Part shown: positions 1 through 14,615 of the stretch, in pieces
Layout of the letters: each line of letters starts with the position of its first letter
Position numbering within the stretch: the stretch's first letter is position 1
DNA from: Pseudonocardia sp. EC080619-01
Lineage (GTDB): Bacteria > Actinomycetota > Actinomycetes > Mycobacteriales > Pseudonocardiaceae
Assembly: GCF_001420995.1 (NCBI RefSeq)
Contig: NZ_CP012184.1
Coordinates: 976,501-1,040,500 of the forward strand
Reading direction: 5' to 3'
Length of the DNA: 64,000 bases
Made by a program: the position numbers and the translations under genes
Notes under the pieces: model-generated
The model's database searches: none
What the model was told of the DNA's origin: nothing
What the model saw: the letters and a program-made list of their open reading frames with translations, nothing else

Positions 1-608
1 CGCTCGGCACGGGCGGACTCGACCCGGGCGAGGAACTTCTCCGGCGCCACCTCGGCGGCGAACCGGCGGGCGAGATCCTGCAACCGCCGGATCCCCAGCC
101 GGGTCAGATCGTGGCCGGCCAGACGAACATCCACCGCAGCACGTTCGGCGCGGTCCAGATCCGAGCACGCGGCCACCACCGCCGCCACCTTCACCGCGCT
201 CAACTCACCGGCACCGAACAACCCACGAACATGATCGAGACCGTCGTGCAGATCCCGGGCCGTACTCACCCGACGCCGCGCCTCGGCCGGCGACACCCGA
301 CAGGCCAACCCGACCTGCGCCACCACACCGCGCTGCAACCGATCCGGATCGACCTGCCCGGCCGCGATGCCGTTCTCGACATGGAGCCGGGCGAACGCCC
401 GCACTCGCGTCGCCTGCAACGCCGCCAAGGAGTGCTGCACGGATTCGAGCTGCTGGATCTGATCGATCAACTCCGCCTCGGAGACACCGGACAGGTCGTC
501 GAGCGCGGCCTGCTCCACCGCCAGCTGAACCAGCGCCAGATCGACCTGCGGGAACCCCGGATCTCCGGCGGGGAGGCCGGTGCGTGGGGGTTCCTGGACC
601 GCGGTCAT
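1..608 (-). CDS. DUF222 (13E12-repeat) HNH endonuclease-type protein, partial
   Basis: Read from an ATG at 606-608, the protein starts MTAVQEPPRTGLPAGDPGF and runs without a stop to the left edge (about 202 residues). The helical, Ala/Arg-rich N-terminus (VDLALVQLAVEQAALDDL, then an RVSTARDLHDGL-like segment and RLGIRRLQDLARRFAAEV) is typical of DUF222, the N-terminal part of actinobacterial 13E12-repeat proteins. In full-length members a C-terminal HNH nuclease domain follows; here it would lie outside the window, so nuclease activity is not shown. These genes are multicopy and often SOS-induced, and a perfect SOS box sits 15 bp upstream. The 3' end is missing because of the window edge, not because the gene is broken. 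Confidence 0.8.
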   Translation of the reverse strand, partial: MTAVQEPPRTGLPAGDPGFPQVDLALVQLAVEQAALDDLSGVSEAELIDQIQQLESVQHSLAALQATRVRAFARLHVENGIAAGQVDPDRLQRGVVAQVGLACRVSPAEARRRVSTARDLHDGLDHVRGLFGAGELSAVKVAAVVAACSDLDRAERAAVDVRLAGHDLTRLGIRRLQDLARRFAAEVAPEKFLARVESARAE

Positions 609-622
609 GTGGTCGATCGTAC

Positions 623-638
623 TCGAACATATGTTCGA
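623..638. promoter_or_regulatory. SOS box (LexA operator)
   Basis: TCGAACATATGTTCGA is a perfect 16-bp palindrome. It matches the mycobacterial/Gram-positive LexA operator pattern TCGAAC-N4-GTTCGA at every fixed position. It lies 15 bp upstream of the ATG of the DUF222 gene on the minus strand, where LexA would block transcription. 13E12-family genes of Mycobacterium are known members of the DNA-damage regulon. Confidence 0.85.
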
Positions 639-752
639 TCCGCTAGTAACCGTTCACTCCCGCACACCTTTGAGCTGCGAAGAAATTTCCGACGGGTCGT
701 GTCACGGCCACCGCGCCGCCGACCAGGTCACCCGTCAGTCACCGTCGCCGGT

Positions 753-775
753 CCCGCCGCACGGCGGGCTATGAT
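753..775 (+). promoter_or_regulatory. Palindrome plus -10 element of the LuxR gene
   Basis: CCCGCCG-CA-CGGCGGG (753-768) is a perfect 7-2-7 palindrome. It ends one base before TATGAT (770-775), a good TANNNT -10 box. A start near 782 gives a roughly 30-nt leader containing GGGAGGTG ahead of the ATG at 813. A palindrome just upstream of -10 would suit a repressor, possibly autoregulation. A near-identical palindrome occurs at 38141-38157 next to another regulator. Confidence 0.45.
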
Positions 776-812
776 CGCCGACACACCGTCAGCGTGGGAG
801 GTGTCGGCCAGG

Positions 813-1550
813 ATGCGTGCGGCTACGGCGACGGCGTTGCCCGCCGACCGGCTCGGCCAGGTGTTCACGGTGCTGGAGCGGGTCGACCGCGCGCGTGACG
901 TCGGCGAGCTGGCCGAACTGGTGCTCGAGGCGCTCGGTTCGGTCCTCGGCTTCCGCAACACGACGTTCTTCGCCGGCTCCACCTACAGCGGCCTGTTCCG
1001 CGACCCGGACCCGCTGCTCAACGGCCGTCAGCGCAGCATGATCCGTGAGTACCGCGAGCGCTGGTCGGACCGCGACGTGTTCGCCCAGCCCCGCGAGTCG
1101 GCGGTACTGCACCGCACGCACGCCGCCGCGGTCGACACCCGTGAACCCACCCCTGCTGCCGACCGGCCGTACCTGTCGTGGCTGGCCCGCAACGGGCTGG
1201 AGAACCTCGCCGCCGTCCGGGTCGCGCCCGGCGGCGGGCAGGCGCTGTTCGGGATCTTCGGCCCGAGCGGCACCGTCGGCCCGGCCGAGCTGGCCCAGCT
1301 GCGGCTCCTCGGCCGCCAGCTCGACGCGATCGCCCGGCACCTGCCCGAGCACGCGACGGCGGCCCCGCCCCCGCTGCCGCCGCGGCTCGCCCAGACGGCC
1401 GAGCTCGTCGGACGGGGCATGACCAACGCGATGATCGCCCGGACGATGGAGCTGTCCGAGGACACGGTGAAGAAGTACGTCAGCCGGTTGCTGGAGCGCA
1501 CCGGGGCGCGGAGCCGGACCGAGCTGGCGCTGGTACTGCGCGGCAGCTGA
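813..1550 (+). CDS. LuxR-family transcriptional regulator, GAF-like sensor
   Basis: 245 residues. The last ~60 form a GerE/LuxR helix-turn-helix (LVGRGMTNAMIARTMELSED, then VKKYVSRLLERTGA). The preceding ~170 residues (VLERVDRARDVGELAELVLE, then LGFRNTTFF) resemble a GAF-type sensor that would bind an unknown small ligand. ATG 813 is chosen over in-frame ATG 771 and GTG 801 because ATG 771 overlaps the TATGAT -10 box and GGGAGGTG is placed to serve 813. It converges with the NTF2-like/LLM pair, leaving 12 bp between the stop codons. The pair or the SDR gene may be its target, but no direct evidence links them. Confidence 0.8.
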   Translation: MRAATATALPADRLGQVFTVLERVDRARDVGELAELVLEALGSVLGFRNTTFFAGSTYSGLFRDPDPLLNGRQRSMIREYRERWSDRDVFAQPRESAVLHRTHAAAVDTREPTPAADRPYLSWLARNGLENLAAVRVAPGGGQALFGIFGPSGTVGPAELAQLRLLGRQLDAIARHLPEHATAAPPPLPPRLAQTAELVGRGMTNAMIARTMELSEDTVKKYVSRLLERTGARSRTELALVLRGS

Positions 1551-1562
1551 TCCGGCCGCGGC

Positions 1563-1934
1563 TCACCCCAGCGCCGCGAACAGCGGGGCCAGCTGCCCCG
1601 TGTCGACGTACTCCTCGATCCGGACCACCCGGCCGTCGTCGTCGACGTGCACGGCCAGCGCCGCCGGGGCGCGGAACGTACCGCCGTCGGGCAGGGTCCC
1701 GCGGAGCGTGTACTGCGCCCAGGAGACCGGTCCACCGGTGTCCTGGGCGCGGACCTCGTACATCCCGAAGTCCGGTACGACGGACCGGATGGCACGCACC
1801 GAGTCGAACGTGGCGGGGAGGGTCGGGGCCTCCACCTCGTCGAACGAGTGCCAGGTGACCGATCCGGGCGCGAACAGCGTCTCGCCGGGGTCGAGGGTCA
1901 TCAGGGCGTCCACCACCCGTGCCGCAGGGATCAC
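1563..1934 (-). CDS. NTF2-like (SnoaL/ketosteroid isomerase fold) protein
   Basis: 123 residues starting at a GTG that overlaps the stop of the upstream LLM gene as GTGA, so the two are translationally coupled. The pattern (hydrophobic N-terminal helix, TWHSFDEVEAPTL, a central MYEVRAQDTGGPVSWAQYTL strand pair, then LAVHVDDDGRVVRIEEYVDT) is that of SnoaL-type NTF2-fold proteins. These act as small isomerases, hydrolases or accessory proteins. No catalytic dyad can be assigned with confidence. Coupling to a flavin monooxygenase suggests it handles that enzyme's product. Confidence 0.7.
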   Translation of the reverse strand: MIPAARVVDALMTLDPGETLFAPGSVTWHSFDEVEAPTLPATFDSVRAIRSVVPDFGMYEVRAQDTGGPVSWAQYTLRGTLPDGGTFRAPAALAVHVDDDGRVVRIEEYVDTGQLAPLFAALG

Positions 1935-3091
1935 CGGGCACGCTCCTTCTCGTACTTCTCGGTCATGTGCGCGACGGCGTCGAGCTGGGCCTTCGAGTAT
2001 CCCTCGCGGACCTCGGTGGCGCGACGGGCCGCGTCGACGGTGGGTTCGGACTGCCCCTGGAAGTGCGGCGCGACCTCCTCGGCGAACAGCTCGAACGAGC
2101 GCCGGGTGGCCGCCGGACCCGCCCAGTCCTGCCCCATCAGCAGCAGCGTGCCGAAGCTGCCGGCCTGGTCGACGAGCCGCTGCACCTGGGCGCGCGCCTG
2201 ATCGGGTGTCCCGATCACGCCGATGCCGGCCTCGTTGATGAACTGGATCATCTCCTTGACGTTGTCGCCGGAGACGGCCATCTGCGGGAACGCGGCGACC
2301 TTCTGGAAGTAGCCGAACCAGTGCTCGATGCCCTGCTCGACCTCGCGGTAGGCCTGGTCCTCGGTCTCCGCGACGTGGAACGGGCTGACCAGCCGCCAGC
2401 CGGAGCGGTCGACGGTCGTCCCGGCCGCGGCGGCCCGCTCCTCCATCACGTTCCAGTGGTGGGCGAGCGCGTCGAAGCCGTCGGCACTCAGCGTCGCACC
2501 GATCGACAGCAGGCCGAGCCCGTGGGTGCCGGCGAGCCGCGCCCCGGTCGGCGACGCGACGGCCGCGACGGCGATGTCGAACAGCGGGTCGGAGAACGGT
2601 GCGAGCTGCAGCCGGGCGTCGATCAGCTCGTGGGTGCGGGTCGTCGCGGTGACCGACTCGCCCCGGAACAGCCGCAGGATGATGTCGAGGTTGACCTCGA
2701 GCAGCTCGCGGGTCTCGGTCGGGTTCAGGCCGATCATCGCCGAGTCGGTGGGGAGCGAACCCGGGCCGACGCCGAACAGCGTCCGGCCACGGGTGAGGTG
2801 GTCGAGCTGCACGATCCGGTCCGCCACCCACAGCGGGTTGTGGTACGCGATCGAGGTGACGCCGGTGCCGAGCTTGATCCTCCGGGTGCGCTGCGCCGCG
2901 GCGGCGATCATCAGCTCCGGCGAGGCGTAGATCTCCGAGCCGGCCGAGTGGTGCTCGCCGAACCACGCCTCCTCGTAGCCGAGTCGGTCCAGGTGCTCGA
3001 TGAGCTCCAGGTCGCGCTCCATCAGCAGCGTCGGGCTCTTGCCCGGTGCGTGCACCGGGGCCAGGAAGATGCCGAAGTTCAGTCGGGCCAT
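1931..3091 (-). CDS. LLM-class flavin-dependent monooxygenase
   Basis: 386 residues. It starts MARLNFGIFLAPVHAPGKSP and has the bacterial-luciferase-like TIM-barrel signatures WFGEHHSAGSEIYASPELMI, RIKLGTGVTSIAYHNPLWVA, DHLTRGRTLFGVGPG and, near residue 280, INEAGIGVIGTPDQARAQV. Such enzymes use reduced FMN supplied by a separate reductase to hydroxylate or oxidatively cleave a substrate; the limonene-monooxygenase/alkanal group is the nearest in style. The substrate is unknown. It is the first gene of a two-gene unit with the NTF2-like protein, and its promoter must lie in the divergent interval that also carries paired GTGCAC boxes. Confidence 0.85.
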   Translation of the reverse strand: MARLNFGIFLAPVHAPGKSPTLLMERDLELIEHLDRLGYEEAWFGEHHSAGSEIYASPELMIAAAAQRTRRIKLGTGVTSIAYHNPLWVADRIVQLDHLTRGRTLFGVGPGSLPTDSAMIGLNPTETRELLEVNLDIILRLFRGESVTATTRTHELIDARLQLAPFSDPLFDIAVAAVASPTGARLAGTHGLGLLSIGATLSADGFDALAHHWNVMEERAAAAGTTVDRSGWRLVSPFHVAETEDQAYREVEQGIEHWFGYFQKVAAFPQMAVSGDNVKEMIQFINEAGIGVIGTPDQARAQVQRLVDQAGSFGTLLLMGQDWAGPAATRRSFELFAEEVAPHFQGQSEPTVDAARRATEVREGYSKAQLDAVAHMTEKYEKERAR

Positions 3092-3179
3092 CTCAGGTGT
3101 GCCTCTCGTCGGGCGGTGCGCCGTCGCACCGCGCGGCCGTGGTGCCGATCACGGTGCAGCCGCGGCGGGCGCGGCACGA

Positions 3180-3248
3180 GTGCACGAAAGGAGACACCGC
3201 GCCGTCCCCCTCCGTGCACTCCCGTACGGCGCCGGCGGCGGCTACCGT
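3180..3248 (+). promoter_or_regulatory. Paired GTGCAC boxes and -10 of the small-protein gene
   Basis: GTGCAC occurs at 3180-3185 (as AGTGCACGAAAG) and 3214-3219 (as CTCCGTGCACTCCC), in opposite orientations. TACCGT (3243-3248) is a TANNNT -10 box. The same CGTGCACT box recurs at the same distance (21-22 bp) ahead of a TACCGT box in front of the SDR gene. This suggests one regulator for both promoters and perhaps for the divergent LLM gene. Confidence 0.4.
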
Positions 3249-3283
3249 CCGGGCGACAGCACCCCGACCCCCGGAGGACGACG

Positions 3284-3595
3284 ATGTACGTCCGGATCAC
3301 CGCGGACACCGCCGAGCTCGTCGAGCCGGAGAACGTCCGCTCGTTCCACGCCGTCGTCCCCGCCGGGTTCGACGCCGGCGCCGTCGAGGCGGCCGTGGCG
3401 GCCTCGGACGTCGGGACGGTCACGCCGGACGGCGAGCACGTCCTCGTCCGGGTCGACGCGCTGCGCCGCCTCGCGGCCGGCCGGGTGCCCGCGGGCTGGG
3501 ACGACGATCTCGCCGGGATGGTCGCCTACGCCGCGACGAAGGGCTGGACCGACGAGGACGGCACCGCGGTGCGCGCCCACGTCGAACGGGAGTGA
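3284..3595 (+). CDS. Small acidic protein of unknown function
   Basis: 103 residues beginning MYVRITADTAELVEPENVRS, preceded by GGAGGA at 3272-3277. It reads as an alternating beta/alpha protein (FHAVVPAGFDAGAVEAAVAA, HVLVRVDALRRLAAG) ending in a WTDEDGTAVRAHVE segment. There is no signal peptide, membrane span or known motif. It sits between a divergent LLM monooxygenase and an SDR dehydrogenase and shares promoter architecture with the SDR gene, so an accessory role in the same process is possible. The function is not known. Confidence 0.65.
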   Translation: MYVRITADTAELVEPENVRSFHAVVPAGFDAGAVEAAVAASDVGTVTPDGEHVLVRVDALRRLAAGRVPAGWDDDLAGMVAYAATKGWTDEDGTAVRAHVERE

Positions 3596-3603
3596 GCCGG
3601 CAC

Positions 3604-3649
3604 GTGCACCTTCGTGCACTGTCCCGGCCGCCGCGCCCCGCCCTACCGT
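3604..3649 (+). promoter_or_regulatory. Paired GTGCAC boxes and leaderless SDR promoter
   Basis: GTGCAC occurs at 3604-3609 and 3614-3619. TACCGT (3644-3649) is followed after 7 nt by the ATG at 3657, the usual geometry of a leaderless actinobacterial transcript. No Shine-Dalgarno sequence is present. The CGTGCACT box is shared with the promoter at 3213-3248. Confidence 0.5.
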
Positions 3650-3656
3650 TCCCTGC

Positions 3657-4433
3657 ATGACCGACTTCACGGGCAAGGTCGCCCTGGTCACCGGCGCGGC
3701 GTCGGGTATCGGCGCCGCCGTGGCACAGCGGCTGCGCACGGCAGGGGCGAGCGTGCTGCTCGCCGACATCGACGCCGGCCGGCTGGCCACCACGGGGGAC
3801 GACGACCGCCGACGCGGCGTCGTCACCGACGTGACCCGCTCGGCCGACGTGGCCGCCGCCTGCGCTGCGGCCGTCGAGGAGTTCGGCGGCCTCGACCTGG
3901 TGTTCAACGTCGCCGGCGCCGCCACGCTGGGCACCATCCTCGACGGCGACGAGGACGACTGGCGGTCCACCGTGGACCTCGTCCTCGGCGGCACCTACCT
4001 GACCACCCGGCACGGCGCCCGGGCCATCCGCGACACCGGGCGCGGCGGGGCGATCGTCAACGTCGCCTCGCTCAACGCGCACGTCCCGCTCTACGGCGGG
4101 AGCTCCTACGCCGCAGGCAAGGCCGCCGTCGAGGTGTTCACGAAGAACGCCGCGCTGGAGCTCCAGCGCCACGGGATCCGGGTCAACGCCGTGCTGCCCG
4201 GCCTCGTCCGGACGCCGCTGACCGCCGGGTGGTTCGACGGCGGACCGGTCGAGCAGGACTTCGCGAACCGGATCCTGATGGGGCGGGCCGCCGATCCCGA
4301 CGAGCTGGCCGGGCCCGCGCTGTTCCTCGCCGGGCCGGACGCGTCGTACGTGACCGGGACCAGCCTGGTCGTCGACGGTGGGTGGGAGATCACGAACTAC
4401 CCGGACATCTCGGCGGCGGTCGAGGGCGGCTGA
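3657..4433 (+). CDS. Short-chain dehydrogenase/reductase (classical SDR)
   Basis: 258 residues, the usual classical SDR length. The cofactor-binding TGAASGIG motif is at residues ~12-19, followed by the NVAG motif (FNVAGAATLG) and the catalytic S-Y-K set in SLNAHVPLYGGSSYAAGKAA. The C-terminal GTSLVVDGGWEI segment is also typical. It should oxidise or reduce an alcohol/ketone with NAD(P)(H). The aspartate after the second strand (LLADIDAGRL) favours NAD(H). The start is supported by a leaderless promoter. Proximity to an LLM monooxygenase suggests it acts on a hydroxylated intermediate. The 185 bp downstream are non-coding. Confidence 0.88.
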   Translation: MTDFTGKVALVTGAASGIGAAVAQRLRTAGASVLLADIDAGRLATTGDDDRRRGVVTDVTRSADVAAACAAAVEEFGGLDLVFNVAGAATLGTILDGDEDDWRSTVDLVLGGTYLTTRHGARAIRDTGRGGAIVNVASLNAHVPLYGGSSYAAGKAAVEVFTKNAALELQRHGIRVNAVLPGLVRTPLTAGWFDGGPVEQDFANRILMGRAADPDELAGPALFLAGPDASYVTGTSLVVDGGWEITNYPDISAAVEGG

Positions 4434-4618: not shown

Positions 4619-7216
4619 GTGGCGGACGGCGTGACGGACGAGCAGGTCGAGAAGATCTACAAGATCTTCCTCAAGTACGCGGACACCAGTTCGCCCCAGG
4701 AAGCGCTGGACGATCTGCAGCTGATGGGGCAGCCCCCGGAGATGATCAGTGCGATCCGGGAGAAGCACGAAGCCGAGACCGTACGCATCCGGAACCTGGA
4801 CGAGCCGCCGTCGGTCTGGTTGGACGGACGTATCACCTGGTACACGGGCCCGGACATGGCCAAGGACAGGAACTGGCCCGCGATCAAGGCCGCCATGGAG
4901 AAGAAGGGCTTCGGGGACGCGAACATCGCCTCGGTCGACGCCTCCTCCACGAAGGTCCTCGCACTGCTCGACCACCCCAAGCAGGACTCGTACCGCACGC
5001 GCGGCCTGGTCGTCGGCTTCGTCCAGTCCGGCAAGACCACCAACTTCACCGCTGTCATGGCCAAGGCGGCCGACCGTGGCTACAAGCTGTTCATCGTGTT
5101 GTCCGGCATCCACAACACGCTCCGCCGGCAGACACAGGTCCGTCTCGCGGGCGACCTCGTCCAGGCGAACCCCGGCAAGTGGCACGAGGTCACCACCGAC
5201 AGGCACGACTTCGTCCCGCCCGGCAACCCGAAGGCGTTCTTCGCCGCCAAGGACCAGCACCTGCTGCTGGTCGTGAAGAAGAACGCCACCGTCCTCCGGA
5301 AGCTCCGAACCTGGCTGGCGTCGGCCGGCGAGTACCTCGAGAAGTGCCCGACGTTGATCATCGACGACGAGGCCGACCAGTCGACCGTCGCCACCTCCAA
5401 GATCAACCCGTTGCTGTTCGACGTCCTCAACAAGTTCCCCAAGGTCGGCTACATCGGCTACACGGCCACGCCGTTCGCCAACCTCCTGATCGATCCTGCG
5501 GACGAGAACGACTTCTACCCGCGGGACTTCATCGTCAACCTGCCGCAGCCGACCGGTTACCACGGTGCGGAGGTCCTCTTCGGACGCGAGCTGCTCCCCG
5601 GTGAGGACGCCTCGACCCTCGACGGCGGCTACGACATGATCCGCACCGTTCCGGACGCCGAGATCGACGAGCTGAAGCCGAGGAACAAGAAGGAAGCGGT
5701 CGACTTCCACCCCGGCGCCGCGCACTCGCTGCGACGCGCCGTGGAGTGGTTCTGGCTGGCCACGGCCGCCCGGAAGGTCCGGGGCGGCGGGAACCCGCAC
5801 TCGACGATGCTGATCCACACCACGACGGACACGGTCGTCCACGAACGCTTCGCGGATCCGCTGCTCGATCTGCGCGCGCGGACCCTTCGCGACCTCGACA
5901 GCGGGAACACGACCCTGCTCGACCGTCTCCGGACCACCTGGGAGAAGGAGACGGCGCGTGTACCCGCCGCCGATTTCGGTGAGGCGACCGTGCCGTTCGA
6001 CGCGCTCCTCCACCACCTGCACGGTGTCGTCGGCGACACGAAGGTCGTGATCGACAACTATCGCAGCACCGACCGCCTCGACTACGAGTCCGGCCCCGTG
6101 ACGGCGATCGCCGTGGGCGGCAACACCCTCTCCCGCGGGCTGACGCTCGAGGGCCTGGTCTCCAGTCTGTTCGTCCGTGCGGTGTCGGCCTACGACACGC
6201 TCCTGCAGATGGGCCGCTGGTTCGGCTACCGCAACCACTACGGCGACCTCCCGCGCATCTGGATGACCGACGAGCTGCGCGGATGGTTCAGCCATCTCGC
6301 GACCGTCGAGGCCGAGATGCGGCAGGACATCAACCGGTACATGAACCCCGGCGTCGATCCGCTCAACTTCGCGGTCCGTCTCCGTACGCACCCCAAGATG
6401 AGCATCACCACCAAGGCCAAGATGACCAGCGCGGTGAAGGCCTCGGCCGCCTTCGGCGGATTGCTGGTCGAGTCGCGCTTCTACGACGTCTCCCCCGACG
6501 CCGGGGCCTGGCTGGCACGGAACGCGCAGGCTGCTCGAAACCTGGTCACGGCGGCGGCGAAGGACGGCGACGCCGCCTCCACGAACGCCGAGTCCGCACT
6601 CTTCACCAAGGTCCCGCACGAGGACGTCCTGGACTTCCTCGACGGCTACTCGTTCCACGAGCGGTCCTCCGACGGCGACAGCAGGCGCATCGCGGAGTAC
6701 ATCCGCAGGCGGGTCCGGAAGGGCGCGCTCGGCCGCTGGAGCGTCGGTGTCGTCGGCAACTCGCTCCCCGGCGCCGACACCAAGCGCTGCGACTTCGGCA
6801 CCGGCGTCGACGTCCGGATGGTCCGGCGCTCCCGCCTGCACACCGACGCCGACACCGAGTTCGACGGGGTCGCGGACATCAAGACCCTCACCAGCCGACG
6901 GGACGAGGCGCTCGACCTCGCCGCCGACCACCCGAGCTCGCTCACCCGCAAGGATCTGGTGACCCTGCGTCGACAGCAGCGCCCGACCGAGGGCCTCGTC
7001 CTCCTCTACCCGATCGAGCCCCGCTCGGAGCCTGCCCGGCTCAAGAACCGTGTTCCGCTGGACGCCCCGACGGACGACGTCGTCATGGGCGTCGCCTTCG
7101 TGTTCCCCGAGCCGGACGGCAAGGACTCCGAGGTCGAGTACATGAGCGCAGACCTCTCGAAGGTCGTCGTCGAGGAGGAGGACGACTCCGTCCTCGAGGA
7201 GCAGGACGACGAGTGA
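4619..7216 (+). CDS. Z1-domain protein with superfamily-II helicase-type ATPase
   Basis: 865 residues from a GTG preceded by GCGAGGGG. Walker A is at 133-141 (GFVQSGKTT), Walker B at 249-253 (DDEAD), motif III-like TATP at 282-285, and a C-terminal arginine-finger region at 530-538 (QMGRWFGYR) after GGNTLSRGLTLEG. This is the layout of Z1 proteins, in which the Z1 domain is joined to an SF2-helicase-like core. Such proteins occur with MutL/MORC-type ATPases and nucleases in restriction-like defence loci. It is the first gene of a five-gene operon with GTGA/ATGA overlaps at every junction. A possible -10 box (TAGCCT, 4579-4584) lies upstream. The gene is richer in Lys/AAG codons than its neighbours, which may reflect transfer. 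Confidence 0.88.
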   Translation: MADGVTDEQVEKIYKIFLKYADTSSPQEALDDLQLMGQPPEMISAIREKHEAETVRIRNLDEPPSVWLDGRITWYTGPDMAKDRNWPAIKAAMEKKGFGDANIASVDASSTKVLALLDHPKQDSYRTRGLVVGFVQSGKTTNFTAVMAKAADRGYKLFIVLSGIHNTLRRQTQVRLAGDLVQANPGKWHEVTTDRHDFVPPGNPKAFFAAKDQHLLLVVKKNATVLRKLRTWLASAGEYLEKCPTLIIDDEADQSTVATSKINPLLFDVLNKFPKVGYIGYTATPFANLLIDPADENDFYPRDFIVNLPQPTGYHGAEVLFGRELLPGEDASTLDGGYDMIRTVPDAEIDELKPRNKKEAVDFHPGAAHSLRRAVEWFWLATAARKVRGGGNPHSTMLIHTTTDTVVHERFADPLLDLRARTLRDLDSGNTTLLDRLRTTWEKETARVPAADFGEATVPFDALLHHLHGVVGDTKVVIDNYRSTDRLDYESGPVTAIAVGGNTLSRGLTLEGLVSSLFVRAVSAYDTLLQMGRWFGYRNHYGDLPRIWMTDELRGWFSHLATVEAEMRQDINRYMNPGVDPLNFAVRLRTHPKMSITTKAKMTSAVKASAAFGGLLVESRFYDVSPDAGAWLARNAQAARNLVTAAAKDGDAASTNAESALFTKVPHEDVLDFLDGYSFHERSSDGDSRRIAEYIRRRVRKGALGRWSVGVVGNSLPGADTKRCDFGTGVDVRMVRRSRLHTDADTEFDGVADIKTLTSRRDEALDLAADHPSSLTRKDLVTLRRQQRPTEGLVLLYPIEPRSEPARLKNRVPLDAPTDDVVMGVAFVFPEPDGKDSEVEYMSADLSKVVVEEEDDSVLEEQDDE

Positions 7217-8205
7217 GCCCTGACGGTACCCGGCTCGACACACTGTGGACAGCTGCGCTCTCGACGTCGGCGACGTCCCGCTTCCGTACGGCGAGCTCAG
7301 GGGTCGTGACCCCGCACGGACCGGTGCTCGTCGCGGTGCGCGAGGACGACGTCAGACACCTGCTCGTCCCGATCGACGCGAGACACAGCCTGAAGGAGGA
7401 CGTCGACGGCCGGTCCGTCACCCTCCGCCGACGGGTCCTGGAGGACGAGTCGAGCTACCGCACCTACGCCGCTCTCGCGCTGGTCGACGATGGACCGGGC
7501 GACCTGTTCCGCGCTCTGTGCGTCGAGGTGCTCGCGAGGATCGAGGCGGATCCGGACCGGGCCGTGGCCGCGCTGCGTCGCACACTGACGGACTGGCGGG
7601 CCCTGTTGTCCGGCGCACGCCGCACTCTCGGCCCCGCCGAACTGGCGGGACTCTTCGGAGAGCTGTTGCTCCTGAGCGAGATGCTCGACGACGACCCGGG
7701 TGCCGTCGCGTTCTGGACCGGACACTCCGGATCGGCCCAGGACTTCCACCGGAGCGCGATCGCACTGGAGGTCAAGGCCACCACCGCGGCGGAGGGACGG
7801 AAGGTCCGCATCCACGGTGTCGGACAGCTCGACGGCGGGGACGCGATGCGGTTGCTGCTGACCTGGGTCCGGCTCCGCACCGACCGCGGGCGCTCGGTGC
7901 CGGACCTGGTCGACGCCTGTCTCGCCCGGACGGACGACGAGGGTGCTCTCCTCACGGCGTTGCGCGACGCCGGCTATCTCCCGGCCGACCGTGCGGTGTA
8001 CGCCGGGAAGGTGTTCGACGTCGTCGAGCGTCGGACGTTCGAGGTCGGCCCCGGATTCCCCCGCATCACGGCATCGGGCCTGGCGGGCGACGCCACCCTC
8101 GCCGGCATCGGCGGTGTCCACTACGACCTCGATCTCGACACCGCCACCGCGACCGACACGATCATCGACGGTGACGCGGCACGCGCATTCCTGGAGCACT
8201 CGTGA
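7213..8205 (+). CDS. PD-(D/E)XK nuclease-motif protein (DUF4420-like)
   Basis: 330 residues from a GTG overlapping the Z1 stop (GTGA). The catalytic pattern is a helix with E150 (FGELLLLSEML), D177 (SAQDFH) and E186-x-K188 (ALEVKATT), i.e. the E...D...ExK arrangement of PD-(D/E)XK nucleases. Proteins of this length and motif spacing are annotated DUF4420 and consistently accompany Z1 proteins. Probable role: the DNA-cleaving subunit of the defence complex. The assignment of the motif is visible; the activity is inferred. Confidence 0.82.
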   Translation: MSPDGTRLDTLWTAALSTSATSRFRTASSGVVTPHGPVLVAVREDDVRHLLVPIDARHSLKEDVDGRSVTLRRRVLEDESSYRTYAALALVDDGPGDLFRALCVEVLARIEADPDRAVAALRRTLTDWRALLSGARRTLGPAELAGLFGELLLLSEMLDDDPGAVAFWTGHSGSAQDFHRSAIALEVKATTAAEGRKVRIHGVGQLDGGDAMRLLLTWVRLRTDRGRSVPDLVDACLARTDDEGALLTALRDAGYLPADRAVYAGKVFDVVERRTFEVGPGFPRITASGLAGDATLAGIGGVHYDLDLDTATATDTIIDGDAARAFLEHS

Positions 8206-10073
8206 CGACCCCACGCTGGTGGTCCCAGCCGTTTCCGCCGACCGGAGCCATCGCGTCGGAGGGGATCCGCAACCAGCTCGGGCGCCCGCCGGTCGATCCG
8301 CTGACCGTCTTCGTGCGCGAGACCGCGCAGAACTCGTGGGACGCACGACTCCGGACGAGCCCGATGGCGACCACCTACCGGTTGGAGCTCACCACGGTCG
8401 CGCCGATGCACCGACCGAGCTGGGAACGGCTGCTCGGTCCGCCGGCGCACACCGAGCAGCATCTCGGGGTCGGCCGGGTCGTCCGGACGCCCGACCTCAG
8501 GCTGCTGTCGGTCGTCGATCGCGGGACGAAAGGACTCGGCGGCCCGACCCGCGCCGACGAGCTCGCACTGGACCGGAAGGACTGGGTGTCGTTCGTCCTC
8601 AACGTCGGTGAGAAGCGCGACACCGAGCAGGGCGGCGGCACCTACGGCTACGGCAAGGCCGTCCTGTACCGGCTCTCCAGGGTCGGCACGATCCTGGTCT
8701 ACACCCGGACCGAGGAGGCGGACGGAACGCTGTCGTCACGCCTGATCGGAATCGCCCTCGGGGAGTCGTTCGACAGCAGTGAGCGGGTCGGCGAGCAGTC
8801 CCGACCGTTCACCGGTCGGCACTGGTGGGGCGACGTGCAGGGTGATCATGTCGAGCCGCTGCGAGGACCGGAGGCCGACTCGATCGCCCGCACCCTGGGG
8901 CTGCGCCCGTTCGTCGACGACGAGACAGGGACGACACTGGTCGTCCTCGATCCCGATCTCGACGAGACCGACGGTGTCGAGGAGGTCGCGCAGCACCTGG
9001 CGCGGACGATCTCCTGGCAGCTGTGGCCGATCATGCTCACCGAGCGCGGGCACGACCGCCTCCACGCCGAGGTCGTCGCGGACGGTCGCACGTTCGCGGT
9101 GCCCGACCCCGCGGACACCTATCCGCTGGACATGTTCGTCGCCGCGTACCGCAAGCAACGTGACGGTGAGGGCTCCGTTCTCGAGTGCCTGCGACCGCGG
9201 CGGAAGCTGGGGCGGTTCGCCGTCGAGGAGGAGTGGGTCGTCCCGATGCCGAAGGACTCGGCGTCCCTCGCCGCCGAGTGCGCAGGAGTCCCGTCGGATC
9301 CGCATCACGTGTGCCTCATGCGATCGCCGGAACTCGTCGTCCGCTATCTGCCGGGCCCGGAGACGGGGTCGGTCAACAAGGCGTACGCGGGGGTGTTCCG
9401 TGCGGTCGACGATCTCGACGACGTGTACGCCGCGGCAGAACCCCCGACCCACGACAACTGGGTCGACGAACAGCTCAGCGGCCACGACCGCACCTTCGTA
9501 CGGACGACCTTCCGGCGCATCAAGGACGCGCTGGAGGGCTTCCGGGCAGCCGCCGTCGTGACCCGTCAGGCGGGCAGCGGTGTCCCGCTGGGCGCCGCGA
9601 GCACCTTCCTCGGCGGGATCGTCGCAGCGGCCTTCGCGGGACCGGACGCACCGGAGGGTGGCCCGGGCGGCGGTGGAGACGCCGGCAGATCGGGCTCCGG
9701 AAGGTCGTCCGGAGGTCGCCGACCCTCCCCGGGAACCCGCGATCGGATCCGGGTCGGGCCCGTGTCCGATCCTGCTGTCGACGAGCGCGACGGCCGTGTG
9801 GTCCTCGTCCAGCGCTTCTCGGTGACCGGTCCCGGCCCGGCACGGCTGCAGGCGTCGGTCACGATCGGACTCGGTGACCGCGCCAAGGAGACCGATGCGC
9901 CCGCGGGCGCGTCCCGTCCTCAGGTGTGGTTCTGGGCGACGCCCGCAGGGCCGGTCACGGGCGACGTCTGTGTGGTCGACAGTCCGTCCGAGGTGGACCT
10001 CGTGGTCCTTCCCGTGGTCGACACGATCACCGACATCGCCGTCGTCGGGGACCGGGCGGAGGCGTCGCCATGA
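8202..10073 (+). CDS. GHKL/HSP90-like ATPase (MutL/MORC-type) of the defence island
   Basis: 623 residues from a GTG overlapping the previous stop. The GHKL ATP-binding motifs are clear: N-box E40-x3-N44-xx-D47 (VRETAQNSWDA), D106-x-G108-x-K-G-x-G (VVDRGTKGLGG), and the ATP-lid glycines at 144-152 (GGGTYGYGK). The fold therefore belongs with MutL, HSP90, topoisomerase VI-B and MORC ATPases. The rest (about 450 residues) carries no domain I can name, apart from a Gly/Ser-rich linker (PEGGPGGGGDAGRSGSGRSS) before a beta-rich C-terminus. Bacterial members lie in restriction-linked loci with Z1 and nuclease genes and probably act as ATP-driven DNA clamps. Confidence 0.85.
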   Translation: MTTPRWWSQPFPPTGAIASEGIRNQLGRPPVDPLTVFVRETAQNSWDARLRTSPMATTYRLELTTVAPMHRPSWERLLGPPAHTEQHLGVGRVVRTPDLRLLSVVDRGTKGLGGPTRADELALDRKDWVSFVLNVGEKRDTEQGGGTYGYGKAVLYRLSRVGTILVYTRTEEADGTLSSRLIGIALGESFDSSERVGEQSRPFTGRHWWGDVQGDHVEPLRGPEADSIARTLGLRPFVDDETGTTLVVLDPDLDETDGVEEVAQHLARTISWQLWPIMLTERGHDRLHAEVVADGRTFAVPDPADTYPLDMFVAAYRKQRDGEGSVLECLRPRRKLGRFAVEEEWVVPMPKDSASLAAECAGVPSDPHHVCLMRSPELVVRYLPGPETGSVNKAYAGVFRAVDDLDDVYAAAEPPTHDNWVDEQLSGHDRTFVRTTFRRIKDALEGFRAAAVVTRQAGSGVPLGAASTFLGGIVAAAFAGPDAPEGGPGGGGDAGRSGSGRSSGGRRPSPGTRDRIRVGPVSDPAVDERDGRVVLVQRFSVTGPGPARLQASVTIGLGDRAKETDAPAGASRPQVWFWATPAGPVTGDVCVVDSPSEVDLVVLPVVDTITDIAVVGDRAEASP

Positions 10074-10966
10074 GTCGTGCGTTCCCGTACCGGAGGCCTC
10101 CGGCCGACGTCGTCGGGTGCGGGCCGTGGCTGCGGGTCGGTGCGACGACCCTCGACGAGGTCGGCACCGATCTCCCGGACTGGGACTACGGGACCGTGCT
10201 GCGGCTCCGTCGGCCCATGCGACTCGACGGTCTCCGGGCACGGGCGGCGACCGGACTCGGCGCCGATGCCGAACTCGATCTGTCGGTGCACTGGTCGTCG
10301 ACGAGTTCGGCGCTGCGGGACCGCGTCTGGCGTGCGCCGGTCCCGTCCGCCGACGACGTCGACCTGGAGGTCGAGTTCGAGCTGCCCGGCGGCGAGCTCG
10401 GGGGGCGGCTCGATCTCTCCACCGTTCTCACGTTGCGCTCGGCCGGGCGGGAGGTCGGTTCACCGGCGGCGCCCCGTCGACCCGGCAGCGTCCTGTGGCG
10501 CGACGTCCATCCGGTCATGCTCCAGGGAGACGCCGTCCTCTTCCCCCTGTCGGTGGTCGACTTCGGCGCTCTGCCCTATCCGACGGGTGCGGCCTGGCAT
10601 CTCGAGCTCGGTCACGATCTGGAGGCGCAGGCACTCGGTTCGATCCTGCTGTTGGCCAACGAACGCAGGGAGATCGTCACCGGTGCGTTGGCCGCCGCGG
10701 CGGACCCGGGCGATGCCGACCGGCGCGTCCTCTCGGCGGTCCGCACCGACGTGATCCGGTCGCTGGTCGAACGCGCGCTCGTCGACGACGGATTCGACCT
10801 CGACGAGGACTACCCCGTCGGCTCGATCGGAGCGCTCCTCGCCGCCGTCCTACGGGCCACCTTCCCGGATCGTTCGCCGGAGGCCCTGCGCGTCGAGCGC
10901 CGCCACGACCCGATCCTCTTCACCACACGTGTCCAGCACGCGACAGAACTACTGGCGGGGCCATGA
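10070..10966 (+). CDS. Unknown defence-island protein, fourth gene of the Z1 operon
   Basis: 298 residues, ATG overlapping the ATPase stop (ATGA). The N-terminal half is beta-rich (WLRVGATTLDEVGTDLPDWD, then VHWSSTSSALRDRVWRAPVP), including a VEFELPGGELGG stretch that reads like a beta-sandwich. The C-terminal half is helical (LEAQALGSILLLANERREIV, TDVIRSLVERALVDD). I see no nuclease, helicase or membrane motif and do not recognise the family. Operon position and coupling imply a structural or target-recognition subunit of the Z1/ATPase complex; this is inference only. Confidence 0.75.
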   Translation: MSRAFPYRRPPADVVGCGPWLRVGATTLDEVGTDLPDWDYGTVLRLRRPMRLDGLRARAATGLGADAELDLSVHWSSTSSALRDRVWRAPVPSADDVDLEVEFELPGGELGGRLDLSTVLTLRSAGREVGSPAAPRRPGSVLWRDVHPVMLQGDAVLFPLSVVDFGALPYPTGAAWHLELGHDLEAQALGSILLLANERREIVTGALAAAADPGDADRRVLSAVRTDVIRSLVERALVDDGFDLDEDYPVGSIGALLAAVLRATFPDRSPEALRVERRHDPILFTTRVQHATELLAGP

Positions 10967-11751
10967 GCATCCTCTATCCACGGCTGCTCGACCAGGCCGC
11001 CCGTGACATGCACTACCGCTTCACGACGATGTCGGTCGAGCAGTTGCGTGAGCTGCGGGCGTTCGGGCATCCGTCGGCGGTGTTCGCCGCGACCGGTGGG
11101 CAACGGGTCCCGGCGGGGTACCTGGAGGAACTCCGCGAACAGATCGTCAAGGCCGCGGAGGAGGCGGGATTCCCTGCGGCGGCCCGACGCGGCTCACATG
11201 CGGAGTTCGACCGAGTGGTCGCCCAGCTGCTGCACGAACGGTGCGGGCTGGTCGCCGCCGAAGCCGCCGTCCGGCCGATCTGGGCGTTCCTGGCTCTCGT
11301 GGTCCTGCCCGACGTGTCGTACTGGCGGTTCCCCGATCCCCCGCCGGATCGTGTGCTCGCGACCGACATCACCCGGCACGTATGGGGTCGTCTGTGGTGG
11401 CGGGCCCACCTGCTGGTGCTGCCCGAGGAGTTCGCCGACCGGTATCGACTGCTCGCCACGTTCGGCGAGGCGGACTTCGACCAGATCTACGCCCGTCGGT
11501 CGATGCTCGGCGGCAGCCGCACCCTGATCAGGGCGATCGCCGAGACGTGGCCGACGATCGACCGGGGCGGGCTGCAGAGCCGCGATGTGCTGAGGGATCT
11601 GCTCAAGCGACTGCTGCGGGTGGCTCCGGTCCTCGAGTTCGACGCGCTCGACGATCTGGAGTTGCGCGACCAGATCCGCTGGGAGGCTAGGAATTCGGTG
11701 CTGGAGCTGCGTCGCGCCGGGGTCGGGAGTGATCGCCCCGTGGACCGTTGA
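10963..11751 (+). CDS. Unknown defence-island protein (possibly DUF6339 type)
   Basis: 262 residues, ATG overlapping the previous stop (ATGA); last gene of the operon. It is almost entirely alpha-helical, with LYPRLLDQAARDMHYRF at the start, WAFLALVVLPDVSYWRF in the middle, and VWGRLWWRAHLLV followed by ARRSMLGGSRTLIRAIAETW. The opening and the GRLWWRAHLL motif remind me of the DUF6339 family, which is found next to Z1/ATPase genes; this is from memory and tentative. No catalytic residues are evident. It may be a scaffold or sensor. Confidence 0.75.
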   Translation: MSILYPRLLDQAARDMHYRFTTMSVEQLRELRAFGHPSAVFAATGGQRVPAGYLEELREQIVKAAEEAGFPAAARRGSHAEFDRVVAQLLHERCGLVAAEAAVRPIWAFLALVVLPDVSYWRFPDPPPDRVLATDITRHVWGRLWWRAHLLVLPEEFADRYRLLATFGEADFDQIYARRSMLGGSRTLIRAIAETWPTIDRGGLQSRDVLRDLLKRLLRVAPVLEFDALDDLELRDQIRWEARNSVLELRRAGVGSDRPVDR

Positions 11752-11769
11752 CCGGTCTCCGCACGGTCA
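11749..11769. terminator. Short hairpin between convergent stop codons
   Basis: TGACCG (11749-11754) and CGGTCA (11764-11769) form a 6-bp stem around a 9-nt loop. The first arm contains the stop of the last Z1-operon gene and the second the stop of the methyltransferase gene. The stem is weak on its own but repeats the design seen at other convergent junctions in this window. Confidence 0.35.
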
Positions 11770-12900
11770 GGACGCCGGCTCGGCCTCCAGCCGCATCGCG
11801 TCGAGGTCGACGACCTGGCGGTCGGCGACGATCGGCTGCAGCCCGGAGACCCACGGAGCCCGGACCCGGGCGTCGAGTTCCTCGACGGTCAGCTCGATCC
11901 CCAGGACGCCTGCCAACACGTGCGCGGCCAGCCGGGGCGGGATGGCGTTCCCGACCTGCTGCCCGACGTCGTTCCCGGACCACGGGTAGTCGTGCGGGAA
12001 GGTCTGGAGCATCCCGGCCTCGTACTCGGTGAAGCGCTCGCCCCTGGTGGCCCCACGCCCGGTGATGCGGTTCCTGCGGATCTTCCCGGTCACCGTGGCG
12101 GCGGGCTCGTCGAACCGGCGCCGTCCACGGTCCTTCGGGTCGCCGCCGGTCCCGTAGTTGGAGACCACCTCGAAGGGCTGCGGTCGGTCGAGGGTCCGTC
12201 CCATCGTCTCCCAGGGCAGCAGGCGTGGATCGCCCTGGTCACGGTCCACTCCCCGTCGATACGGACGGTGGGTGGGGGTGGGAAGTGCCGGCTGCTCCCC
12301 CAGACGGGCCATCAGGATCGCGCGACGACGCGTCTGCGGAACCCCGAACTGCTCGGTGCGCAGGATCCCGGTGGCGGTCCGATAGTTGCCGACGCGTTCC
12401 AGTGCCTCCGCCATCGCCTCCCAGACCGGCAGCACGGCAGGAACCTGTTCGAGGACGATCGCCTCGTACTGGCGTTCCTGGTCCATCGCCTCGATCACCC
12501 AGCGCAGCGGTTCGAGGACCAGTCCGGTCCGTTCGTCGTCCAGGCCGGAGACGATCTCGCGGACGTCGTGGCGATCCACCATCAGCTCGACCAGCGTCCG
12601 GATCCGCTCGAGGGCGCGCCGACCCCCACCCGTCCCGGCGACGGTGAACGTCTGGCACGGCGGCCCCCCGGTCAGGACCGTCGCGTCCGGGAAGTCCGCG
12701 GGCCCGAGGTCCCGGACGTCGCGCTGCCTCGTCCGGAGTCCGGCGCGTCGTCGGGTCGCGCAGGCGTTGGCGTCGAACTCGACACCCTCCGCCGGGAATC
12801 CCAACCACTCCGCGGCGACGTCCAGCCCACCCGGACCGGCGAAGAGATCGACGATCGGGACGGACGACGGCGCGTGCAGGAACGGTTGCTCGGGGAGCAC
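11767..12900 (-). CDS. C5-cytosine DNA methyltransferase
   Basis: 377 residues. m5C motifs occur in order: I at 18-25 (DLFAGPGG), IV with catalytic C82 (GGPPCQTF), VI at 151-153 as EQV instead of the commoner ENV, VIII at 189-193 (QTRRR), and X near the C-terminus (VGQQVGNAIPP). The variable target-recognition stretch lies between VIII and X. It should methylate cytosine in a short site and protect host DNA from the linked nucleases. The GTG start has no Shine-Dalgarno but lies 6 nt after TAGAGT, a leaderless arrangement. It converges on the Z1 operon and lies 87 bp downstream of the Vsr-type gene. Confidence 0.92.
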   Translation of the reverse strand: MLPEQPFLHAPSSVPIVDLFAGPGGLDVAAEWLGFPAEGVEFDANACATRRRAGLRTRQRDVRDLGPADFPDATVLTGGPPCQTFTVAGTGGGRRALERIRTLVELMVDRHDVREIVSGLDDERTGLVLEPLRWVIEAMDQERQYEAIVLEQVPAVLPVWEAMAEALERVGNYRTATGILRTEQFGVPQTRRRAILMARLGEQPALPTPTHRPYRRGVDRDQGDPRLLPWETMGRTLDRPQPFEVVSNYGTGGDPKDRGRRRFDEPAATVTGKIRRNRITGRGATRGERFTEYEAGMLQTFPHDYPWSGNDVGQQVGNAIPPRLAAHVLAGVLGIELTVEELDARVRAPWVSGLQPIVADRQVVDLDAMRLEAEPAS

Positions 12901-12906
12901 GGACGG

Positions 12907-12912
12907 ACTCTA
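12907..12912 (-). promoter_or_regulatory. Leaderless -10 box of the methyltransferase gene
   Basis: On the minus strand TAGAGT (TANNNT) is followed by 6 nt and the GTG start codon at 12900. No ribosome-binding site is present. This would give the methyltransferase its own promoter, separate from the upstream Vsr gene. Confidence 0.45.
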
Positions 12913-12987
12913 TCGCTCGCTCCGTCCGCCGCGGGTCGGGTGCACCACCGTGTCGTCACATCGTCCGGACGGCCACTCGCCCACCGG

Positions 12988-13422
12988 TCACACGAGACGC
13001 GCCGCCTCCCGGTCGAGGACGTCCTCCACCGCGTCCGCCGCGGAATCGGCGGCCTCGTGCTCCCAGATCCGGATCACCGACCACCCCGCGTCCACGAGGC
13101 GCTCATCGGTGTCCCGGTCCCGCTCCACGTTGCGCGCGAGCTTCGTGGCCCACCACTCGCCGTTGGATTTCGGGGAGGTCGCGTGCTCCGGGCAACGGTG
13201 CCAGAAACAACCGTCGACGAAGATCGCCAGCCTGTACCGGGTGAAGACCACGTCGGCTCGGCGACGGCGGAGGCCGTCGATGTCGAAGCGGTACTCCACG
13301 CGGAACCGCCTGCCGCGCCGATGGAGCTCCCTCCGGAGGGCGACCTCCGGGGAGGTCCCGGTCCGAGCCTGACGGGACATCCGTGCGCTGACGTCCGGGC
13401 TGCTGGGCACGACCTGCGACAT
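12988..13422 (-). CDS. vsr: Very-short-patch-repair (Vsr) type endonuclease
   Basis: 144 residues from the ATG at 13422, chosen over ATG 13431 because GGGGGAGGG then lies 9 nt upstream rather than abutting the start. The Vsr signature is complete: [20 protein letters not shown], catalytic D57 in [20 protein letters not shown], the [10 protein letters not shown] metal/active-site segment with H75, then [20 protein letters not shown] and [11 protein letters not shown]. Vsr nicks T:G mismatches produced by deamination of methylcytosine. In MutL/Z1 loci Vsr-like nucleases may instead serve as effectors. Confidence 0.92.
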
Positions 13423-13472
13423 CGGAACCATCCCTCCCCCGGCGCTGTGTCCCGCTGCTCTCGATGCTCGGA

Positions 13473-13489
13473 GGAGCGTCGCACGCTCC
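13473..13489. repeat. Inverted repeat upstream of dhaK
   Basis: GGAGCGT-CGC-ACGCTCC is a perfect 7-3-7 inverted repeat between the divergent vsr and dhaK genes, about 120 bp before the dhaK start. It could be an operator for either gene. No regulator gene is adjacent, so the protein that reads it is unknown. Confidence 0.35.
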
Positions 13490-13610
13490 GGAGGGACGAG
13501 CGTGCAGCACCACCGACATGCGCCGGCGTAACCACACGGCCCGGCCCGGCGAGCACGACAGGAGGACCCATCGACACCTGACCCGCGTACTCCGTGGAGG
13601 AGGAGCTCCG

Positions 13611-14615
13611 ATGAAGAAGCTCATCAACGATCCCGCCGACGTGGTGGCCGAGTCGCTGGTCGGCGTGGCCAGGGCACACCCGGCGCAGCTGCGCGTCGAC
13701 CACGAGAACCGCGTCGTCCTGCGGGCCGACGCCCCCGTCCGGGGCAAGGTCGGTCTGGTCTCCGGCGGCGGGACCGGGCACGAGCCGCTGCACAGCGGTT
13801 TCGTCGGGCGCGGGATGCTCGACGCCGCCTGCGCCGGGGAGGTGTTCACCTCGCCCGTGCCCGACCAGATGGTCGCGGCCACCCGGGCCGTCGACGGCGG
13901 CGCCGGCGTGCTGCACGTGGTCAAGAACTACACCGGCGACGTCATGAACTTCGAGATGGCGGCCGAGCTCGCGGGCGCCGAGAGCGGTGTGGCGGTGGAG
14001 TCCGTCGTGGTCGACGACGACGTCGCCGTCCAGGACAGCCTGTACACCGCGGGCCGGCGCGGCGTCGGTGCGACGCTGCTGGTCGAGAAGCTCGCCGGGG
14101 CCGCCGCCGAGGAGGGCCGCGACCTGCCCGCCGTCGCCGAGATCGCCCGCCGGGTCGACGCCGGCGCCCGCAGCATGGGGATGGCCCTGACCTCGTGCAC
14201 CGTCCCGGCGAAGGGCACCCCGACGTTCGACCTGCCCGAGGACGAGATCGAGGTCGGGATCGGCATCCACGGCGAGCCCGGACGGCGGCGGGTCCCGCTC
14301 ACCACGGCGCGCGAGACCGCGGAGATGCTGGTCGAGCCGGTGCTGACCGATCTCGACTTCACGGGCGGCGGCGGGGTGGTCGCGTTCGTCAACGGCATGG
14401 GCGCCACCCCGCTGCTCGAGCTCTACCTGATGTACGGCGAGATCGCGGCGCTGCTGGAGAAGGCCGGGGTCACCGTCGCCCGGTCGCTGGTGGGCTCCTA
14501 CGTCACCAGCCTGGACATGGCCGGGTGCTCGCTGACCCTGCTCCGCCTCGACGACGAGCTCGTCCGGCTCTGGGACGCGCCCGTGTCGACGACCGCGCTG
14601 CGCTGGGGAGTCTGA
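13611..14615 (+). CDS. dhaK: Dihydroxyacetone kinase, DhaK subunit
   Basis: 334 residues, matching the PTS-dependent DhaK subunit rather than the ATP-dependent fused kinase. It begins [12 protein letters not shown] and contains [20 protein letters not shown] and the substrate-binding [12 protein letters not shown] motif, in which H220 forms the hemiaminal with dihydroxyacetone. It transfers phosphate from DhaL-bound ADP/ATP to dihydroxyacetone in the cytoplasm. The ATG is preceded by GGAGGAGGAG. It is first in a dhaK-dhaL-dhaM operon. Confidence 0.95.

Follow-up and report, generated by a model that had tools for sequence, protein, structure and literature searches.

What is the function of seven adjoining genes, five on the forward strand followed by two on the reverse strand, in Pseudonocardia sp. 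EC080619-01? The genes lie at 4619..13431 of the window, which is the whole stretch of 64,000 nucleotides analysed here (contig NZ_CP012184.1, positions 976,501 to 1,040,500). A preliminary description had observed this locus; the observation is confirmed as real, and the interpretation given there is partly supported. Together the seven genes form a complete example of a widely distributed candidate defence operon of bacteria, of a kind that had already been predicted. On sequence grounds, we lean slightly towards ATP-dependent restriction protected by 5-methylcytosine (m5C), in which the operon would probably cleave foreign DNA lacking the host cytosine methylation. What the relatives add is that three core genes, the triad (the GHKL gene, gene 4 and the DUF6339 gene), also adjoin other defence genes, often accompanied by a dead methyltransferase. 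The features are as follows.

4619..7216, forward strand: helicase-like ATPase gene (the Z1/SF2 ATPase of the preliminary description), motif DTLLQMGRWFG
7213..8205, forward strand: predicted PD-(D/E)XK nuclease, 330 amino acids (Pfam DUF4420, 1.2e-47)
8202..10073, forward strand: GHKL ATPase, paraMORC2-like, 623 amino acids (PADLOC PDC-M33A and motifs)
10070..10966, forward strand: gene 4, 298 amino acids, no known family, conserved in all loci
10963..11751, forward strand: gene 5, DUF6339 protein, 262 amino acids (PF19866, 2.7e-8)
11767..12900, reverse strand: m5C DNA methyltransferase, 377 amino acids, here labelled type B for PPCQTFTV plus EQV (Pfam DNA_methylase, 1.3e-24)
12988..13431, reverse strand: Vsr endonuclease, 147 amino acids (TIGR00632; Pfam Vsr, 1.7e-14)

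Conservation of the core proteins

Core counts refer to 81 loci, and DUF4420 counts to the 78 loci with a detected gene. The neighbourhood comparison found conserved co-occurrence. Every letter of the window motif DTLLQMGRWFG was kept in all 81 loci. The DUF4420 partner was detected in 78 loci and none was detected in three; its residues E150, D177, E186-x-K188 and Q205 were invariant in alignments of first 23 and then 78 members (23/23 and 78/78). The E, D and ExK residues suggest a PD-(D/E)XK nuclease, as had been proposed. The GHKL (MutL/MORC-like) assignment was also borne out. The motifs E-x2-QNSWDA, DxGTxGLGG and GGGTxGxGK and the paraMORC2 ExxxH (EPPTHDxW) were kept in 80 or 81 of the 81 loci, and PDC-M33A matched the protein in 24 of 24 members, while the Pfam search gave no match.

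Two proteins had been called unknown. This holds for gene 4, which occurs in 81/81 loci; its window protein matched nothing in Pfam, in NCBIfam or in PADLOC. When 25 aligned members were searched, PADLOC gave zero matches and Pfam gave stray weak matches only (three families, at most two members each, best E 0.01). It does not hold for gene 5, a DUF6339 protein, whose AlphaFold model is all-helical with a predicted local distance difference test (pLDDT) of 92.7. In L076 (12771-14246) and eight similar loci, DUF6339 has a C-terminal extension of 228-248 amino acids, alike in all nine; that of L076 weakly resembles DUF3320, below the cut-off.

In the window DUF6339 stands alone; in 34 loci among the 80 named relatives (between L066 and L129; for example L070:12888-14720) it forms one protein with an m5C methyltransferase domain. 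The fused domain is dead, its catalytic Cys being replaced by Arg, and the dead methyltransferase of L200 reads PPR. This dead clade also has unfused members, which occur in Nocardia and in loci of the DISARM type.

The methyltransferase and Vsr

The m5C methyltransferase was correctly recognised in the preliminary description. It scores 87.7 bits against PF00145 (cut-off 22), carries the catalytic PCQ in PPCQTFTV and matches PADLOC MTase_II (1.1e-78); against TIGR00675 (dcm) it reaches 79.4 bits, under the cut-off of 100.65. EQV is found in the listed type B methyltransferases and ENV in types A and C, at a site which we take to be methyltransferase motif VI. Its TAL-effector matches covered one short segment only and were dismissed as chance.

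Vsr was likewise correctly named, with 115 bits against TIGR00632 (cut-off 97.85), and the D of RADVVF, GC, WH and a further C and H were identical in 66 of 66 aligned proteins. The gene is probably the V gene of the adjoining methyltransferase. An effector role for Vsr, as first suggested, was rejected, since the protein is above the vsr-subfamily cut-off and Vsr, within reach of 66 of the 81 cores, was not found in the other 15.

These enzymes could also serve m5C maintenance instead of defence, with the methylase, Vsr, MutL-like ATPase, helicase-like ATPase and nuclease acting in very-short-patch or mismatch repair of deaminated m5C. In very-short-patch repair MutL and the Vsr endonuclease act together (PMC2292703), and the frequent Vsr neighbours would fit. 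However, the 15 loci without detected Vsr, the cores of L143 and L144 with neither methylase nor Vsr in the stretches examined, and a patchy presence inside one genus, unlike housekeeping repair, make this very unlikely.

Active methylase families are swapped among loci while the core stays similar, as if no single fixed unmethylated sequence were read. This would suit a modification-dependent, type IV-like system, in which the core cuts phage DNA whose cytosines are foreign or hypermodified, the resident methylase doing no more than block or compete at host sites. An m5C-cutting nuclease next to an m5C methylase would be hazardous, however, and general library scans of the window proteins recognised no modified-base-binding domain; we consider this still less probable than repair.

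Core loci without methylation, and the island setting

Several observations weigh against m5C-protected restriction. L143 and L144 (a cyanobacterial copy and an agrobacterial plasmid copy) have the core without a methyltransferase in the stretches examined, and L060 has none within reach; because of these three loci, methylation may not be obligatory. Among 33 loci, a change of methyltransferase family brought no clear change in any core stretch, and the largest identity excess (0.06) was located in the fused dead methyltransferase. In the window, 7 of the 8 most diverged segments lie in DUF6339 (four) and DUF4420 (three), from one type B genome. These comparisons therefore single out no target-reading part of the window core. 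The window locus lacks the dead methyltransferase, a single-sequence search of low reach found none in the window's genome, and gene 4 has no assigned fold.

In L060 / L028 (Pseudonocardia oroxyli), the GHKL gene is split into two frames and no Vsr lies within reach either; the copy may be decaying, or the sequence may contain an error.

The GC content is 68-72% at 4 to 14 kb, 77-80% at 14 to 18 kb and 72-73% left of the operon. The GHKL protein was matched in 8 of 60 genus genomes, with at least 71% identity in six, its own genome included. In an empty-site test of ten genus loci picked by a Dak1 match, the next right-hand genes were kept in 10/10 and the three left neighbours in 0/10; the test therefore does not place the left border of the insertion. 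The left neighbours (from window 111-4433) encode a LuxR-type regulator, a luciferase-like monooxygenase and a short-chain dehydrogenase, and the right neighbour (13464-14615) is a Dak1 kinase gene. Viral origin was rejected: GHKL and the window methylase had no relatives in viral contigs, nor GHKL in phage records. Six plasmid records were matched, each covering at most 80% of the query.

Comparison with known systems

The kinship with MZA (mzaABCDE of Gao 2020, as described in PMC9523054), with Vsr among the effector nucleases, did not stand. The seven proteins include no AIPR (MzaE), as had been noticed, and no sigma factor, and have no matches to other Mza models; the NCBIfam equivalog cut-offs of MzaC and MzaD were missed widely (369.7 versus 1500 and 87.8 versus 420 bits). 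With Vsr above its subfamily cut-off and not constant across loci, this is the least likely explanation of all. An AIPR-family match lies on another contig, distant from the operon (G000 contig C2, 592883-593314).

The predicted paraMORC2-type system has in common with the window a helicase with DThhQXuRhFG, a restriction-fold E-D-ExK partner, a GHKL ATPase, a DCM methylase, Vsr and the ExxxH motif; the accessible part of its description does not name gene 4 or DUF6339 or cover the triad's effector exchange. Compared by description only, the type I system of Miller 2022 includes three additional genes, and the window too has three, which may or may not be the same ones; the accessible text on that system names no GHKL protein, dead methyltransferase or DISARM link and prints DUF4220 where the window has DUF4420. 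In the PADLOC candidate PDC-M33, A matches GHKL and C matches DUF6339 (17 of 25 members), with weak scores. Gene 4 is near PDC-M33B in size (289 positions), yet this model gave no match (0/25); across 6 genomes and controls it was silent everywhere, controls included. The CglI and NgoAVII ATP-dependent restriction systems are described with three genes, and GHKL, gene 4 and DUF6339 are not in the parts of the descriptions available (PMC5737866, PMC4267653). In the Corynebacterium island CDBH8_0988-0994 (PMC5379612), compared by its partly available description, the methylase is fused to an Xre HTH, unlike the window.

At L197:2267-3971, two tandem NgoMIV-type restriction genes adjoin a methyltransferase, Vsr and the triad.

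For DISARM, no DrmA or DrmB match was found among the seven window proteins, and the window methylase matches DrmMII models merely among 52 methylase families. In relatives, the triad has DISARM-type neighbours: DrmA/DrmB in L199 by PADLOC, L206 and L207 by similarity to L199, and DrmA plus a 1600-amino-acid helicase in L202-L205. In these seven loci, the triad is accompanied by an m5C methylase in 7/7 and by Vsr in 5/7.
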